This document shows, in pieces, positions 2,724 to 30,793 of a DNA stretch of 40,099 bases. The DNA is taken from IMG/VR virus record IMGVR_UViG_3300011115_000937, positions 1 to 40,099 of that record. One strand, given 5' to 3'. Positions within the stretch are counted from its first letter, which is position 1. Every line of letters begins with the position of its first letter. The DNA comes from a virus. The position numbers and the translations under genes are program-made. The notes beneath the pieces were generated by a model, which was not told the origin of the DNA, did no database searches, and saw only the letters and a program-made list of their open reading frames with translations.

Positions 2724-2942
2724 TCAGCACGCCTTCGCTAGTCCGGGCGGGACGTGGGTAAACGGGATCCCAGCCGGCAGGCCGGCTTCCTTGGCACTGC
2801 GAATGCACAGGCGCATCGCGCCAGACGTGCTATTGCACGTCGCCTTCGCGATCTGCCGGATAAAATCGGCCAGTTCGGGCTCAAGCCGCACCGTCATGGT
2901 GGGGTTGATTTCAGTTTCGGATTCAGTGGTTGTCGCACTCAT
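2724..2942 (-). CDS. Ribbon-helix-helix regulator (leftward)
   Basis: This encodes 72 residues. The core MTVRLEPELADFIRQIAKATCNSTSGAMRLCIRSAKEAG fits the Arc/CopG ribbon-helix-helix fold: a short beta strand (MTVRL), helix A (EPELADFIRQIAKAT), a turn, then helix B (SGAMRLCIRSAKEA). Such proteins bind DNA as dimers of dimers, often as repressors of their own promoter. I chose ATG 2942 because a perfect TATAAT lies only nine bases upstream and further upstream codons would be inside the promoter. A second RHH gene is divergent across a 77-bp gap with nested inverted repeats, a layout typical of a lysogeny or partition switch. It lies upstream of the tRNA-like element and the early block on the same strand. 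Confidence 0.75.
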   Translation of the reverse strand: MSATTTESETEINPTMTVRLEPELADFIRQIAKATCNSTSGAMRLCIRSAKEAGLPAGIPFTHVPPGLAKAC

Positions 2943-3019
2943 ATTTGCAAAATTATACAGAATAAACTTGCAACGCAAGAAGGTTCTTGCATTATTTTGT
3001 AAATTTTCTATTATCCAGT
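2943..3019. promoter_or_regulatory. Divergent promoter/operator between the two RHH genes
   Basis: This 77-bp A/T-rich gap separates the divergent RHH genes. Leftward, TATAAT is at 2957-2952, nine bases from ATG 2942, with possible -35 elements TTGCGT (2978-2973) or TCTTGC (2980-2975). Rightward, TTGCAA at 2968-2973 could be a -35 with an A/T-rich -10 near 2991-2998. Two overlapping inverted repeats lie over these elements: CTTGC-AAC-GCAAG (2967-2979) and CAAGAA-GG-TTCTTG (2976-2989). They are natural operators for the flanking RHH proteins. Confidence 0.6.
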
Positions 3020-3346
3020 GTGCCAAAGAAAACATCCAGCCCGTCCGAAGTCTTCGCGTTCCGCCTGCCTAACGAGGATCGGAAATGGCTGGAGTCCACC
3101 GCCCAAGCAAACGGGGTCGAGGTCTCCCAGATCGTCCGCTGGGCCGTCATTGCCATCAAGCAATACGTGGACGCCCACGGCGGCCGCATCCATCTCCCGC
3201 TCGACATCCGCACCCTTTGGGAACAGCGCCCTGCCTTCCCTGGTCCTTCAGCTTACACCAGCGGCCCATCCGAAAACACGCCAGATCAGCCCACGCAGCC
3301 AGTCAATCACCTCCCAACGCCCAGGAAGCGCATGGGCGGAAAATAA
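3020..3346 (+). CDS. Ribbon-helix-helix regulator (rightward)
   Basis: This encodes 108 residues from GTG 3020; an in-frame ATG at 2987 would add 11 residues but would put the start inside the operator repeats, so GTG is preferred. The N-terminal core from about residue 12 (FAFRLPNEDRKWLESTAQANGVEVSQIVRWAVIAIKQYV) has RHH pattern: strand, helix, turn GVEVS, helix. The C-terminal 45 residues are Pro-rich and probably disordered. It is the divergent partner of the leftward RHH gene, as in paired repressors. Convergent with the small two-TM gene 19 bases downstream. Confidence 0.7.
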   Translation: MPKKTSSPSEVFAFRLPNEDRKWLESTAQANGVEVSQIVRWAVIAIKQYVDAHGGRIHLPLDIRTLWEQRPAFPGPSAYTSGPSENTPDQPTQPVNHLPTPRKRMGGK

Positions 3347-13300: not shown

Positions 13301-16300
13301 TCTGGCGGGGCAGGCCGGCCAGCCCATCGATGGCATAGCCATTGCGGGCGCTTTCGATGGCTTCCGCTTGCCGGGCCAGCCATTCCAGGCCGAGCTGGGC
13401 GCGGTCCCCATTCAGGTGGCCGTAGTCGGCGGAGATGTCGTCCAGCTCCTCCTGCGGGATTTGCTCCGTGAGCTTGTCCCAGCGGTCCCGGAAATCCTTG
13501 TCCGTGGCCAGCAGGTGGTTCACCCCATCGTGCCCCACCCGCTCATGCAGGATGACCCGGGCCACTGCCGAGCGCGGGGTTTCCCCGGGGCGCACCGTCA
13601 CATTGTCCGTGAAAATGATGGTCCGCCCGGTGCGGGGATCGTGGACGCCCTCCGCCGTGGCCATGGCAGCGCGTTCCTCCGGGGTGAAATAGCCCTCCGG
13701 TGCGTAGCCGCTGGAGGTCAGGGAGTCGGGATTGGCAACAAAATGGACGCGCTCAGTCACCAGCCCGGGCAGGGCGTTGGAGAGTGCGGTCACCGCTTCG
13801 GCGGCGGCCTTGGCGGGGTTGCTGGTCTTGGCGGAGAGGAGCGGCGTGCCGGGATTCTGCTGGGAATACGTTAAGCCTCCTAGCTGACCTATACCTGCCC
13901 TTACTCCTGTTGTTGACGTAACAGCACCAGCTTGGCCTCCTCTTCCGGATCTGGATGGACGGACGGGATTATCAAGTGCCCATTGCGTGATAACCGCGCG
14001 ACGGATCGTCGCGGATCCAAAGCCATCGCGTTGCAACCCAGTAAGGGCCGCGTCGGAGATTGGGTTACCTTGGTATCGGAAGGAGCGGGATCGTCGGTCA
14101 TAAGTCAGGTCGTCAAATTCTGGAACAGCAGCACGGACATTATCCACTTCTTTCAGCAGCAATGCAATTAATTTATCTGTGTCCGTGCCTTGCCAGCGGA
14201 CGCCCTGCTCCGGTGCAGGGTCGCTGTGTGAGGTAAAATTAGGGTCCCCAGCCGCCAGACGGCGCAGGGCAAAACTGATCATGTTGCTGGTGCGGCGCAG
14301 GATATTGATTGGCCACAGATCGCTGGAAATGAATTTATAGTTATTGTTTCGCGCCCAAAGAAAAGCTGCCAAATATGCTTGACTGCCGGTGCTGCGTTGC
14401 CCGGCGGTGGCACTACCCTGCATTCGAGATGTATTAGCTTTATAAACGCCGGGGCTTTGCCTCGTAATATACATCGGACCGCTGCGGGTCTCGATCGTCA
14501 GTCCATTACCTGTGGGCGTGATGGTGATCCAATCCTCCGGCGTGGCCACGGCAGCAGCAATGTCAGCAATATCAGCGGAATCCGTCCAGCCGTAAAGGGA
14601 TCCAGCTTCCTGAGCAATCTCCTTCCAGACCGCTATCATGCGGGCGCGGGCGGACGGCCGGGGCATGGGGGTGACGGCTGGGCGGGGCGTGGCGGCGCTG
14701 GAGGTGGTGGCGGCGCGGGAGGTCCGGGCGCGGGGAGCGGCGGCGGGCTGGGTGGTGGTGGCCGGTGGAGCCGTGGGGAACGGAATGCCAGCCCTTGAGG
14801 CTTCCCGGTAGGTGGGATGCGTGTAATGAGTGCGCAGCCATGCGCCGGGCATATCACTGTAAGTGCCATCAGCATTCCGCTGCTGCTCCCTCACCCTCAC
14901 GGACCAACCATTGCCATTGGATGCAGGGGTAAAGGATTCCACGCGATCCACCATCCCTGATGATGACACGACCAGACTCCCGGGCGTGAAATAGCTGGGC
15001 AGCATGGAGTCAGGAATCCATCCCTCCGGTCTGACGCCTGCTGGGATGGGAGTGGGAGTAGGTAGCGTCAAGCGTGATGGCGCGGCAGGCGCGGCGGGCG
15101 CGGCAGGCGCGGGCGCAGGCGTGGAAACAGCCGCAGGCGTAGAGGCGGGGGCGACAGGCGCAGGCTCCGGCGTAGCTTCCGGTGCCGTCTCATCTTCCGT
15201 CCCGAAAATGTCTCCTATGGCGGACGGGGCTTGAGCGTCTGGGGCCTGCCGCGCGGCTGCCACGTCCGGGATGGATTCATCCGTCAGGGTATCGCCGGGC
15301 TGGGCGCGGTCGTGGAGGGTGGCTTTGACCTGGGCGCGGGTGGACTCGTCCACTTCCACGGCTTTTACCTCCACGCCCTGGGCATTCCGCAGGACTACGG
15401 CCCCGGTGGGGGTGTCCGGGCGGGTGCCGATGCCGTAACCCAGGGCTTCCCCCAGATTACCGGATTGCAGGGCGGCGGTGAAGGTGGGGACATTGGCGGC
15501 GGGCAGGATGGCCACGCCAGCGGGGGTGTCCATGGCGGTGAGCCCATCCCCGGGCTGCGGGGTCAGGGCGGGCGGGAGCTGCTCCAGGGTGGCGCCGGGG
15601 ATGGTCATGGCAGGCTCGATGCCTGCAGCCACGCGCTGGAACTGGGCAGCGAGGGTGGCGGCGGACTCCGGCACGGTGCCCATGGGGTCCTGCGGGGTGG
15701 GCGCGGTGGGCGCGGTGGGCACAGGGAAAGGGCTGGTCTGGTCCACGGTCCCGCCGCGGGCTGCGATTGCGGCGAGGTTTTGGGGATTTGAGATTTGAGG
15801 ATCTGAAATTTGAGATCCGGCGGGGACTGGAGCTGGATTGGAAATTGGAGATCCGGCGGGGACTGGAGCTGGATTTGAAATAGCCGGGGGGCTTATTGCA
15901 ATCGGCGCAGACGGATTGGAATAAGTCGTAGTAGGTGGCGCGGGCTGTGTGCCATTGACAGGAGCAGCAGCAGGAGCGGCAGCGGCTGGATTGGCGGGGG
16001 CTGGCGCGGTGGGTGCGGTGGGATTGGGCGCTCCGATGTTCCTTTGCGGGATGGCCCGCGCGATGGTGGCCCCGCCCATCATGGGCAGACTGCCAAAAAA
16101 TCCACCCATCCCGGCCTTCAGGGGATCCTGCTCCTGTTGACCGGCGGCATTGGCCACCACGTTCTGGAAGTTTGCCCCCACGTATTCTTCCACCCATTCC
16201 TTGGCAGGCATCAGGGCGATGGACTTCCACGGCATCCGCTGGCCGCGCATGAGCTTGGCTTCATCCGGGAAGATGCGCTCGCTGGCCAGTTCGATTGCCG

Positions 16301-28045: not shown

Positions 28046-28122
28046 TGGTTGTGGAGGTTGGATTTGAACCAACGGCCTTCAGATTATGAGCTTGACGAGC
28101 TACCGGACTGCTCTACCCCACA
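28046..28122 (-). tRNA. tRNA-Met (CAT), CCA encoded
   Basis: Acceptor TGTGGGG/CTCCACA, D arm GAGC-AGTCCGGTA-GCTC, anticodon loop CTCATAA, T arm GTTGG-TTCAAAT-CCAAC, discriminator A and an encoded CCA (28048-28046). The D arm and T arm resemble bacterial initiator tRNA, but position 1-72 is T-A rather than the initiator C-A mismatch, and the anticodon stem lacks the three G-C pairs and has an A-C mismatch. It lies nine bases after the capsid gene stop. Confidence 0.9.
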
Positions 28123-28131
28123 ACAAATGGT

Positions 28132-29130
28132 TCAGGTGGTGATCTTGCCCATCATCCGGGGGTTGCTGACTTCCAGCCCGGTGATGTATTCGATGAACCG
28201 GCGGTAGCCGCCGCCACGGTATTCCAGCGGCTTCACCATGGCATTCCGCACGGGGCGGAGGGCGCAGGATTCCATGTCCACGAAAAGGGCATGGACGCCA
28301 GAGGGCAGGCTGAAGTGAGTGTGCAGGCGCAGCTTGCCGAAGTCCGATTCGTAAATCTGGATGTTCAGCATCAGGGTGCCATCGCTGGCGGCCGCGTTGA
28401 AGCGGCGGAGGGGGGCGGTGGTGGCGCTGGCATCCCCGGTGCGGGCCCAGCCGGAGAAGACGGATTTCATGTCAGGGGTGACAAACACGTCCCACGTCCC
28501 ATTCCGCCGGGCGGCGGAGCTGATGGACTTCATGACGCCGCGCACGTCATCCTCGGTGACGTTGGTGGCGGCGGTCTTCCCAGTGACGATGCTGGCGGTG
28601 GGGCACAGCGCGGCGCTGTTCACGGCCAAGTCCGGCGAGCCGGGGTTGGCGCTGCGGATCCAGTTGGTCAGACCGCGCAACTTGCCTGGAGTGGAGTTGT
28701 CAGTGTTGGCCTGACTATCGGTATTTTTCAGGCAGGTCACCTCCAGATTTTCCCGGGCAAGGATGATGCCGTCTGCCACGGTCTCCGCCAGCAGGGTGCC
28801 GTCCTGGGCGTACTCGTTCCCCAGTTCGTTTGCTACGTCCGTGACGCCTACGACGACGCGGGCTTTTTGGTAGCGGCCTTGGAGCATGACCTTGAGGCCC
28901 TGGCTGTTGATGACTTCGGAGTCAGCCACATCCATGCCATCCGCCACGGCGTTGTCAGAGGGAGTGTGGCGGCTCTTGTATTTCCACTCGAAGAGGGAGG
29001 AAACGGGAGGTTTTCCCTTCCGCACCATGCTGGAGAAGGGGTTTTCCTCCGCACGGGCGTAGGTGAAGGAGGTGTTCACGTCCTTCACCCGGAAGGGGGA
29101 GACAACGTCTCGGTCAAAGGCATCAGCCAT
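28132..29130 (-). CDS. Major capsid protein, SU10/DUF5309-like
   Basis: This encodes 332 residues. NPFSSMVRKGKPPVSSLFEWKYKSRHTPSDNAVADGMD (about 31-68), KARVVVGVTDVANELG (about 89-104), the long alpha helix (TLLAETVADGIILARENLEVTCLKN), and the C-terminal HTHFSLPSGVHALFVDMESCALRPVRN follow the HK97-fold SU10/DUF5309 capsid pattern. It is preceded by the scaffold gene and followed by a tRNA. The leader contains no Shine-Dalgarno sequence even though it must be the most-expressed gene. Confidence 0.8.
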   Translation of the reverse strand: MADAFDRDVVSPFRVKDVNTSFTYARAEENPFSSMVRKGKPPVSSLFEWKYKSRHTPSDNAVADGMDVADSEVINSQGLKVMLQGRYQKARVVVGVTDVANELGNEYAQDGTLLAETVADGIILARENLEVTCLKNTDSQANTDNSTPGKLRGLTNWIRSANPGSPDLAVNSAALCPTASIVTGKTAATNVTEDDVRGVMKSISSAARRNGTWDVFVTPDMKSVFSGWARTGDASATTAPLRRFNAAASDGTLMLNIQIYESDFGKLRLHTHFSLPSGVHALFVDMESCALRPVRNAMVKPLEYRGGGYRRFIEYITGLEVSNPRMMGKITT

Positions 29131-29168
29131 AATATTAGTAAATTAGGGGGTGGTCTGGGTTGGTGGTG

Positions 29169-30257
29169 TCAGGCGGCCATTTCCGCCGCGACGAGGGCCG
29201 CCAGATCATCAGAGTCCCGCGTTGCCGCGTAGCGCTTCTGAAGGGCGGAGAGGTCCGGTTTCCCCCCCTGCGCCCGGGCTACGGGGGCGGAGGTGGCAGG
29301 GCGGACGGTGCCGGGACCCTGGCCTGCCAACGGGGCAGGCTTGGTGCCGGGCTTGATAGGGGTGGCGGGTTTCTGAGGGGCAACGACTTTGCCATCCTTC
29401 AGTTCCATCCTGACGTATTTTGCCTTGCCAGCCTCGATCTCGGCGACCTGGGCGATGGACCGCGCCGCAGCGGCGAGGAACATTTCCCAGTTGGGCAGCT
29501 TGGTGCGGATCTCCGGACACATCTTCAGCGCCATCTCGGCGAATTGATTCTGCTCCGTGCCGGCGGTGAAGAGTTCCGGGCAAACGCGCCGGGCGCCTTC
29601 CCACGGTTTCTGCTCCGCGCGGCGGTGCAGGCGGCTCTGCCAGTCAGGCGCGGCTTCCAGCACTGTTTCGGCGTGGGCCAGCTTCATGGCCACGTCTTCC
29701 GCGCTGACTTCCAGGTTGCCGATCAGGCCGCCATCCGGGTTGGCCTTGCACCATTGGCGGATTTGCTTTGCCAGATTTGTCTGGGATTGCAGGTCCTCCA
29801 GGCTGTCCACATGGGCCAGCGGACTGGCAGGCGTGGGCAGGACGCCGAAGGGTTTGGTGGCCAGTTCTTCGCGCAGGGCCTTCACGGTTTCAGCCTGTTT
29901 TCCGAGCCGCTTCTGCGCCCACTGGGGGAGCTTCTTGAAGTGTTCCGGGGGCAGGTCCTCGTGGGCCGCGTCATCGGCGGGGTCACCCTCTTCCGGCGCG
30001 GCATCGTCTCCTGCATCGGAGTCGTCCGTGTCATCTGTCAAAGAGGGGTCTTGATCGTCGGGGATCTCGGTTTCGTCAGGTGGTGTCTCCGGATTGACCG
30101 TGGCGGCAGGGGCATCATCACCAAGCTCCGCAGCGACCATTTCCTCAAAGGAAAGCGCCGGCGCGGCCGGGGTGGGAGACGCGGCCGGTCGGGTCGCGGT
30201 GGAGGCTCCCTTCACAGGGGCCGCAGCAGAGGCAGATTGCAGATTTTCGACAGCCAT
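29169..30257 (-). CDS. Scaffolding protein
   Basis: This encodes 362 residues. Long acidic disordered N-terminus (about 40-110, with DETEIPDDQDPSLTDDTDD), a charged helical centre (KKLPQWAQKRLGKQAETVKALREELA), and a basic Ala/Pro/Lys-rich C-terminus (KPATPIKPGTKPAPL and following). That architecture and the position between portal and capsid are typical of podovirus scaffolds. ATG 30257 is 44 bases after a series of three 19-bp repeats. Confidence 0.75.
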   Translation of the reverse strand: MAVENLQSASAAAPVKGASTATRPAASPTPAAPALSFEEMVAAELGDDAPAATVNPETPPDETEIPDDQDPSLTDDTDDSDAGDDAAPEEGDPADDAAHEDLPPEHFKKLPQWAQKRLGKQAETVKALREELATKPFGVLPTPASPLAHVDSLEDLQSQTNLAKQIRQWCKANPDGGLIGNLEVSAEDVAMKLAHAETVLEAAPDWQSRLHRRAEQKPWEGARRVCPELFTAGTEQNQFAEMALKMCPEIRTKLPNWEMFLAAAARSIAQVAEIEAGKAKYVRMELKDGKVVAPQKPATPIKPGTKPAPLAGQGPGTVRPATSAPVARAQGGKPDLSALQKRYAATRDSDDLAALVAAEMAA

Positions 30258-30300
30258 GCCCCGGCTGTAAAGGATTCCGGCGGAATGTCACGGCACCACG

Positions 30301-30357
30301 CGCCGGAGTCGATGTTAATCGCAGGAGTCACCGCTAAACGCAGGAGTCAGCACAAGA
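30301..30357. repeat. Three exact-period 19-bp repeats before scaffold gene
   Basis: CGCAGGAGTC (or CGCCGGAGTC in the first) begins at 30301, 30320 and 30339, exactly 19 bp apart. Positions outside the 10-mer are less conserved. It lies between the tRNA-Met/Ile and the scaffold start, in what would be the 5' leader of a tRNA-released scaffold-capsid mRNA. On the sense strand the motif is GACTCCTGCG. Confidence 0.8.
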
Positions 30358-30361
30358 TAAA

Positions 30362-30433
30362 TGGGCCGGACTGGGATCGAACCAGTGACCAAGCGATTAT
30401 GAGTCGCACGCTCTACCATTGAGCTACCGGCCC
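30362..30433 (-). tRNA. tRNA with CAT anticodon (Met or Ile2)
   Basis: GGGCCGG acceptor with CCGGCCC, D arm GCTC-AATGGTA-GAGC, anticodon loop CTCATAA, T arm ACTGG-TTCGATC-CCAGT, discriminator A, 72 nt, no CCA encoded. It folds in standard form apart from a T-T at the base of the anticodon stem. CAT may read AUG, or AUA if C34 is lysidine-modified (tRNA-Ile2); sequence cannot tell. It lies between the 90-residue gene and the scaffold gene. Confidence 0.9.
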
Positions 30434-30520
30434 GCTTGTGCAAGTTCTGCCGGAGCCGCTGGGGTTTCAAGGGGTTTTGCGGGGCGACGGGCAATCGCAG
30501 GGCCACGATGACTTCCCCGC

Positions 30521-30793
30521 TCACCCCTCTCCTTCCTGCTCCGGCGTGCCGGTGAGTTCGGGTTCGTGGGCGGCGGTGTAGAGCAGCAGGCCCAGCTCTG
30601 CCAGGCCAGCGGCGGCTCCCAGTTGGTAGCTGGAGGATTCCCCATTGGCGGCCTGTTGCGCGGCGGTGGCCAGGCTGTTGAGGGCGTGTTGCTGCATGGC
30701 GCGGAGGATGAGGTGCAGGACGGGGGACTCTGCATATTCCCGCAGGGGGGGATGCAGCAGGGTGGGAGGGAGGGGAATGTTTAGGAATTCCAT
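30521..30793 (-). CDS. Small helical protein downstream of portal
   Basis: This encodes 90 residues: MEFLNIPLPPTLLHPPLREY, then an Ala-rich helical core (VLHLILRAMQQHALNSLATAAQQAANGESSSYQLGAAAGLAELGLLLYTAA) and an acidic end. Unrecognised. It sits between portal and scaffold, after an AACCAAG-type repeat leader. May be a minor head protein. Confidence 0.55.
   Translation of the reverse strand: MEFLNIPLPPTLLHPPLREYAESPVLHLILRAMQQHALNSLATAAQQAANGESSSYQLGAAAGLAELGLLLYTAAHEPELTGTPEQEGEG

Follow-up and report, generated by a model that had tools for sequence, protein, structure and literature searches.

Two tRNA genes with the anticodon CAT lie at the borders of the scaffold-capsid gene pair of a virus genome from IMG/VR (record IMGVR_UViG_3300011115_000937, positions 1 to 40,099; this whole stretch of 40,099 nucleotides is called the window here). 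A preliminary description of this DNA proposed that the late transcript is punctuated at the two tRNAs, as is known from mitochondria, and that a phage could in this way set its capsid mRNA level without a special promoter. Does this bracket of tRNAs define the expression unit of the capsid genes, or do the tRNAs merely sit at borders that are marked by other elements?

The gene pair and the two tRNA genes

The window is probably derived from a phage of Verrucomicrobia, and five of the six loci of terminase relatives that lie in cellular assemblies are in Verrucomicrobiota. Relatives were gathered by a terminase search, with identities of 60% for the nearest (L001/L002), 52% and 49% for the following ones and about 30% for many others. 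Portal, scaffold, capsid and tRNA genes were placed over 94 loci, several of which are fragments, and a capsid gene was found in 43 of them. Capsid and portal alignments recovered no relative nearer than L001/L002, and the lineage of the window and L002 is sampled by essentially one other virus. For the hosts, CAT tRNAs were collected from 15 genomes, made up of Verrucomicrobiota drawn by phylum and of assemblies with terminase relatives (one of the latter labelled Flavobacteriaceae). We assigned their classes from each genome's set of CAT tRNAs, and compared the window tRNAs against the Verrucomicrobiota examples.

The positions of the features are given in Table 1. The capsid ORF matches the SU10-type family with 110.7 bits (cut-off 24.1) over positions 9-289 of the 292 in the profile, which identifies its product as a capsid protein of this type, and it also matches PHROG 1328, major head protein, at 6e-25. 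The preceding protein is named by none of the family models. It is probably the scaffold, judging by its location between portal and capsid and by its homologues in relatives (49% to that of L002). L002 also has a short ORF after the capsid gene similar to that in the window.

Table 1. Features at the scaffold-capsid locus of the window and related elements in other loci
Feature	Position	Strand	Remarks
Next late ORF, 78 aa	27789..28025	-	begins 20 nt beyond the downstream tRNA
Initiator-derived tRNA, CAT, CCA encoded	28046..28122	-	ARAGORN and Rfam RF00005, 58.1 bits
Major capsid protein, SU10 type, 332 aa	28132..29130	-	Pfam PF17236 (SU10_MCP), 1.3e-31
Scaffold-position protein, 362 aa	29169..30257	-	homologues between portal and capsid in relatives
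Non-coding leader	30258..30361	-	three direct repeats GACTCC[TG]GCG; putative promoter or operator
Leader repeats GACTCC[TG]GCG, 10 bp	30339-30348, 30320-30329, 30301-30310	-	19-bp period
tRNA-Ile2-type gene, anticodon CAT, no encoded CCA	30362..30433	-	ARAGORN and Rfam RF00005, 70.3 bits
ORF preceding the upstream tRNA, 90 aa	30521..30793	-	positional counterparts: 96-aa ORF (L002), 109-aa ORF (L089)
GGACTTTAGACC motif	L005:14259, L009:7839, L068:10141 and 3363(-), L070:14211, L083:14334, others		one clade
Covarying hairpin, candidate conserved RNA element	L006:16352-16438, L009:9928-10014, L082:7602-7688 and nine further loci		

Both tRNA genes were confirmed by ARAGORN and Rfam RF00005, whose gathering score is 29, and both lie on the minus strand like the scaffold and capsid genes. 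As had been described, exactly 9 nt lie between the capsid stop and the downstream tRNA. The upstream tRNA does precede the scaffold gene, but more loosely than the "just before" of that description, with gaps of 104 nt to the start of the scaffold ORF and 87 nt to the stop of the preceding ORF. A 69-aa ORF overlying the upstream tRNA (30315-30524, minus strand) was set aside as a likely spurious frame that merely reads through the tRNA; it holds the tRNA-derived peptide SSMVERATHNRLVTGSIPVRP.

The tRNA-Ile2 of bacteria combines a CAT anticodon, with lysidine at position 34, with the pairs C4:G69 and C5:G68. Both pairs are present in the upstream tRNA, which matches Verrucomicrobia Ile2 at 83% and the next best class, Met, at 75%. 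We assign it to the Ile2 (lysidine) type, a predicted reader of AUA and not a Met tRNA. The scaffold and capsid genes have no AUA codons (14 of 368 Ile codons overall are AUA) and thus no need of this tRNA, which rules out codon supply to the capsid genes as its role.

Bacterial initiator tRNAs are recognised by A11:U24 with an initiator D arm, by a weak or absent 1:72 pair, and by G-C pairs at 29:41, 30:40 and 31:39. That one of the two tRNAs resembles an initiator, as noted in the preliminary description, holds for the downstream one. It matches Verrucomicrobia initiators at 85% (next best class, 65%) and has A11:U24 and the initiator D-loop, its D arm (GAGC-AGTCCGGTA-GCTC) being identical to that of one Verrucomicrobia initiator. 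Its U1:A72 pair is within the natural range, since one host initiator has the same pair, the others having U1.U72 or C1.A72. The anticodon stem departs from the initiator pattern, with A29:U41, A30.C40 and G31.U39 in place of the A-U, G-C and G-C of the host initiators at these positions. From its sequence, we assign the downstream gene as a derivative of an initiator tRNA in which the anticodon stem has been weakened. The A30.C40 mismatch and the G31.U39 wobble, together with a fold weaker than that of the upstream tRNA (z -0.99 vs -2.47), would also be expected if a captured initiator gene were decaying and had no function. However, the acceptor, D and T arms, the anticodon loop and the CCA end are all intact, and the Rfam score is twice the cut-off; we consider such decay unlikely.

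A further tRNA-like element at a gene border, 2629-2714, had been likened to these two tRNAs. It has a tRNA-like fold (z -2.5) but is accepted as a tRNA by neither ARAGORN nor Rfam. On the minus strand it scores 20 bits against the 47-bit cut-off for tRNA-Sec. Its T arm and acceptor are perfect, but its centre is a single long arm, and no anticodon arm can be recognised. Its position at a gene border is what would be expected for any tRNA, because the phage genome is gene-dense. We rejected the element as a host-tRNA-derived attachment site, as a search of 289 Verrucomicrobia genomes with its last 22 bases, allowing up to one mismatch, gave no match. An ORF with a weak match to Arc-like repressors lies beside it at 2724-3035.

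The borders of the pair in the window and its relatives

What separates the upstream tRNA from the scaffold gene is a non-coding leader with 13 repeat pairs, compared with 0.4 in shuffled sequences; no further exact copies of the repeat occur elsewhere in the 40-kb window. Other repeats are found at the same site in relatives, often at multiples of about 10 bp (L015, L004), and several of the lineages examined have none. In one clade, a conserved GGACTTTAGACC motif lies a few bases upstream of the scaffold start. A second copy of this motif, on the opposite strand, adjoins the tRNA array of L068, as would suit a promoter element. No convincing sigma-70 site was found in the leader of the window. 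We argue that the leader is probably a promoter or operator region.

The other border is marked by structured RNA. In the 75 nt past the capsid stop the median z is -1.99, and z is below -2 in 18 of 36 capsid loci, which are kin and do not amount to a tally of independent events. Among control ends from the same loci (terminase, portal, scaffold, o125, o277 and helicase), 1 of 267 is structured. The hairpins of L002, L003, L004, L017, L021, L026, L089 and L091 occupy the same place with differing sequence, and among 17 further capsid loci in Verrucomicrobia genomes, inspection by eye gave similar hairpins at about 11. Covariation was found in one clade whose gap is shorter, where the hairpin runs across the capsid stop into the start of the following gene. 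Of its cells, 97% are paired (about 50% in slid controls) and 20 are double-changed, a number reached by none of 500 shuffles; coding constraint acts in this region too. Many of the relatives' hairpins have no T-run.

In the window the hairpin is missing (z +0.63) and the initiator-derived tRNA is found in its slot, and a simple scan gave no terminator-like sites at either border of the pair. It is conceivable that the downstream tRNA alone matters, having replaced the hairpin so that its folding and processing would set the 3' end of the capsid mRNA, with the upstream tRNA being cargo. Most lineages have kept the hairpin, L002 as the nearest relative among them, and it is gone in the window just where the tRNA lies. 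Yet the exchange is seen in one lineage only, and in L318/L327, where an initiator-type tRNA is found one gene past the capsid gene, the post-capsid hairpin is kept, so that the two co-occur as separate elements. We regard the replacement of the hairpin as distinctly unlikely to be the explanation.

A bracket of tRNAs round the pair was found in none of the capsid-bearing relatives. In L001/L002 an Ile2-type tRNA lies before the scaffold gene, antisense to the late genes, in an inserted block together with a reverse-strand ORF. In L002, this inserted ORF (15334-16065, minus strand, 243 aa) lies between the portal block and the scaffold gene, and its product, judged by eye, is possibly a trypsin-like protease. 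A second CAT tRNA of L002 is in sense but displaced: it lies two genes beyond the capsid gene, where the o125 frame ends. L089 has an Ile2-type tRNA in sense immediately before its scaffold gene and a hairpin after its capsid gene. The remaining loci have no tRNA adjoining the pair, and several of them have tRNA arrays before the terminase gene. Each of the phage Ile2 tRNAs before the scaffold gene (in the window, L001/L002 and L089) is nearer to a bacterial gene than to the others, a pattern consistent with repeated captures into a single tolerated gap, within the limits of the weak phylogeny that 73-base tRNA genes afford. A tRNA in L091 (20097-20172) was dropped as phage cargo. Since no other CAT tRNA of Ile2 type was seen in that genome, this one probably belongs to the host itself and lies near the edge of a prophage. 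It adjoins structural genes of the related prophage, and an integration site is possible.

Punctuation, cargo and counter-defence as possible explanations

A tRNA that matures from a longer transcript must be excised. If the two tRNAs mature from the late transcript, RNA ends are thus expected at both, and the processing chemistry of the preliminary description is plausible. Its regulatory claim is not supported. The claim was that cleavage at the two tRNAs, by RNase P and at their 3' ends, frees the scaffold and capsid genes as one bicistronic mRNA whose level is set in this way. The anatomy on which it was built is right: two well-formed tRNAs in the sense orientation enclose exactly the scaffold-capsid pair, the downstream one in the place of the family's hairpin. 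However, the arrangement is not conserved, with the upstream tRNA antisense in the closest relative. The repeat-bearing leader intervenes between scaffold gene and upstream tRNA, and a cut 9 nt past the stop would strip the capsid mRNA of the protective hairpin of its relatives. That the capsid mRNA level is set without a promoter is likewise unsupported, the unit in relatives being delimited by a leader and a post-capsid hairpin, and the window having such a leader with repeats. We found no precedent for tRNA punctuation in phages in the literature searched. Overall, we judge punctuation by the two tRNAs to be highly improbable.

The account that we favour, with moderate confidence, is that scaffold and capsid are expressed as a discrete unit, with a leader at one border and a structured RNA at the other, and that the tRNAs are acquired cargo in the gaps. 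Family-wide, the borders would be a non-coding leader before the scaffold gene, holding a promoter or operator of its own, and a structured RNA, in most cases a strong hairpin, immediately behind the capsid stop. The late operon is tightly packed, and tRNA genes would have been captured into its few non-coding gaps, tRNA-Ile2 into the leader gap and the initiator-derived tRNA into the hairpin's slot. There they would ride on late transcription and then be excised by the usual tRNA enzymes, the cuts being mainly incidental, or at most a local substitute for the hairpin. We favour cargo because the positions and strands of the tRNAs shift among relatives, from antisense in L001/L002 to sense in L089, past the capsid gene in L318/L327 and absent in the others. 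Against it count the failure to find a convincing sigma-70 site in the leader and the sampling of this lineage by essentially one other virus. In addition, the exact replacement of the hairpin by a tRNA in the window could be a functional swap, and the Ile2-type tRNA before the scaffold gene in three lineages might reflect selection for the place rather than mere tolerance.

What the phage would gain from such cargo is an initiator tRNA and an AUA-reading tRNA, replacing the host's or resisting their loss; translation under attack is the more likely benefit, rather than the codon needs of the capsid genes. The initiator-derived tRNA could serve in counter-defence, in which case the changes at and beside position 39 would prevent its inactivation by VapC-type toxins that cut initiators. 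Enteric VapC cleaves initiator tRNA between A38 and C39 (PMC4105405), a site that borders U39 of the phage tRNA, and phage tRNAs are frequently altered at nuclease sites (PMC10264068). U39 is found in the window and in L318/L327, that is, in both clear initiator-type tRNAs of the phage family, while the host initiators recovered have C39. A pattern that permitted U39 found none among at least 119 viral initiator-type tRNAs, with C39 in the matches listed; viral stretches with U39 number only eight overall, L327 among them. PIN-domain genes were found in four of five Verrucomicrobia genomes checked. On the other hand, the mismatched stem may harm initiator function. The comparison hints at a counter-defence role, which we think a reasonable lead though a doubtful one. 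That both roles are combined, the tRNA having been swapped in for the hairpin so that its processing sets the 3' border of the capsid mRNA while its altered toxin site protects initiation, seems very improbable indeed.

The findings are of interest beyond the window. A structured RNA after the capsid gene is found family-wide in a large group of Verrucomicrobia-associated phages that has been little studied, and it suggests that transcript ends are controlled specifically for the capsid. The window itself is a clear test case for whether a tRNA can assume the role of the hairpin, and it holds an initiator-tRNA variant altered beside a known toxin cut site. The weakened idea of punctuation is a guard against over-reading the placement of tRNAs as regulation.

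Comparison with known systems

In T7, the capsid gene (gene 10) is followed by the terminator Tphi. The layout here is similar in that the capsid gene has its own upstream control region and, in relatives, a structured 3' end. The phages are unrelated, however; the promoter here is a putative one, many of the hairpins have no T-run, and the hairpin has given way to a tRNA in the window.

Mitochondrial punctuation is resembled in so far as the tRNAs lie between genes of one transcript and their processing would make mRNA ends. The window differs in having only two tRNAs, with gaps of 87 and 104 nt at the upstream one compared with 9 and 20 nt at the downstream one, and in that the bracket is not conserved and the strand is reversed in the nearest relative.

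Like other phage-encoded tRNA genes, those of the window are host-like, and at least 119 viral stretches carry initiator-type tRNAs. Here, though, they are lone tRNAs within the head-gene block rather than an array, and the anticodon stem of the initiator-derived tRNA is unlike any among those at least 119 listed. As in the nuclease-evading tRNAs of phages (PMC10264068), a host-like tRNA is changed at a known nuclease cut site. The case in the window differs in that it concerns an initiator, the tRNA that, according to that study, Shigella phages generally avoid.
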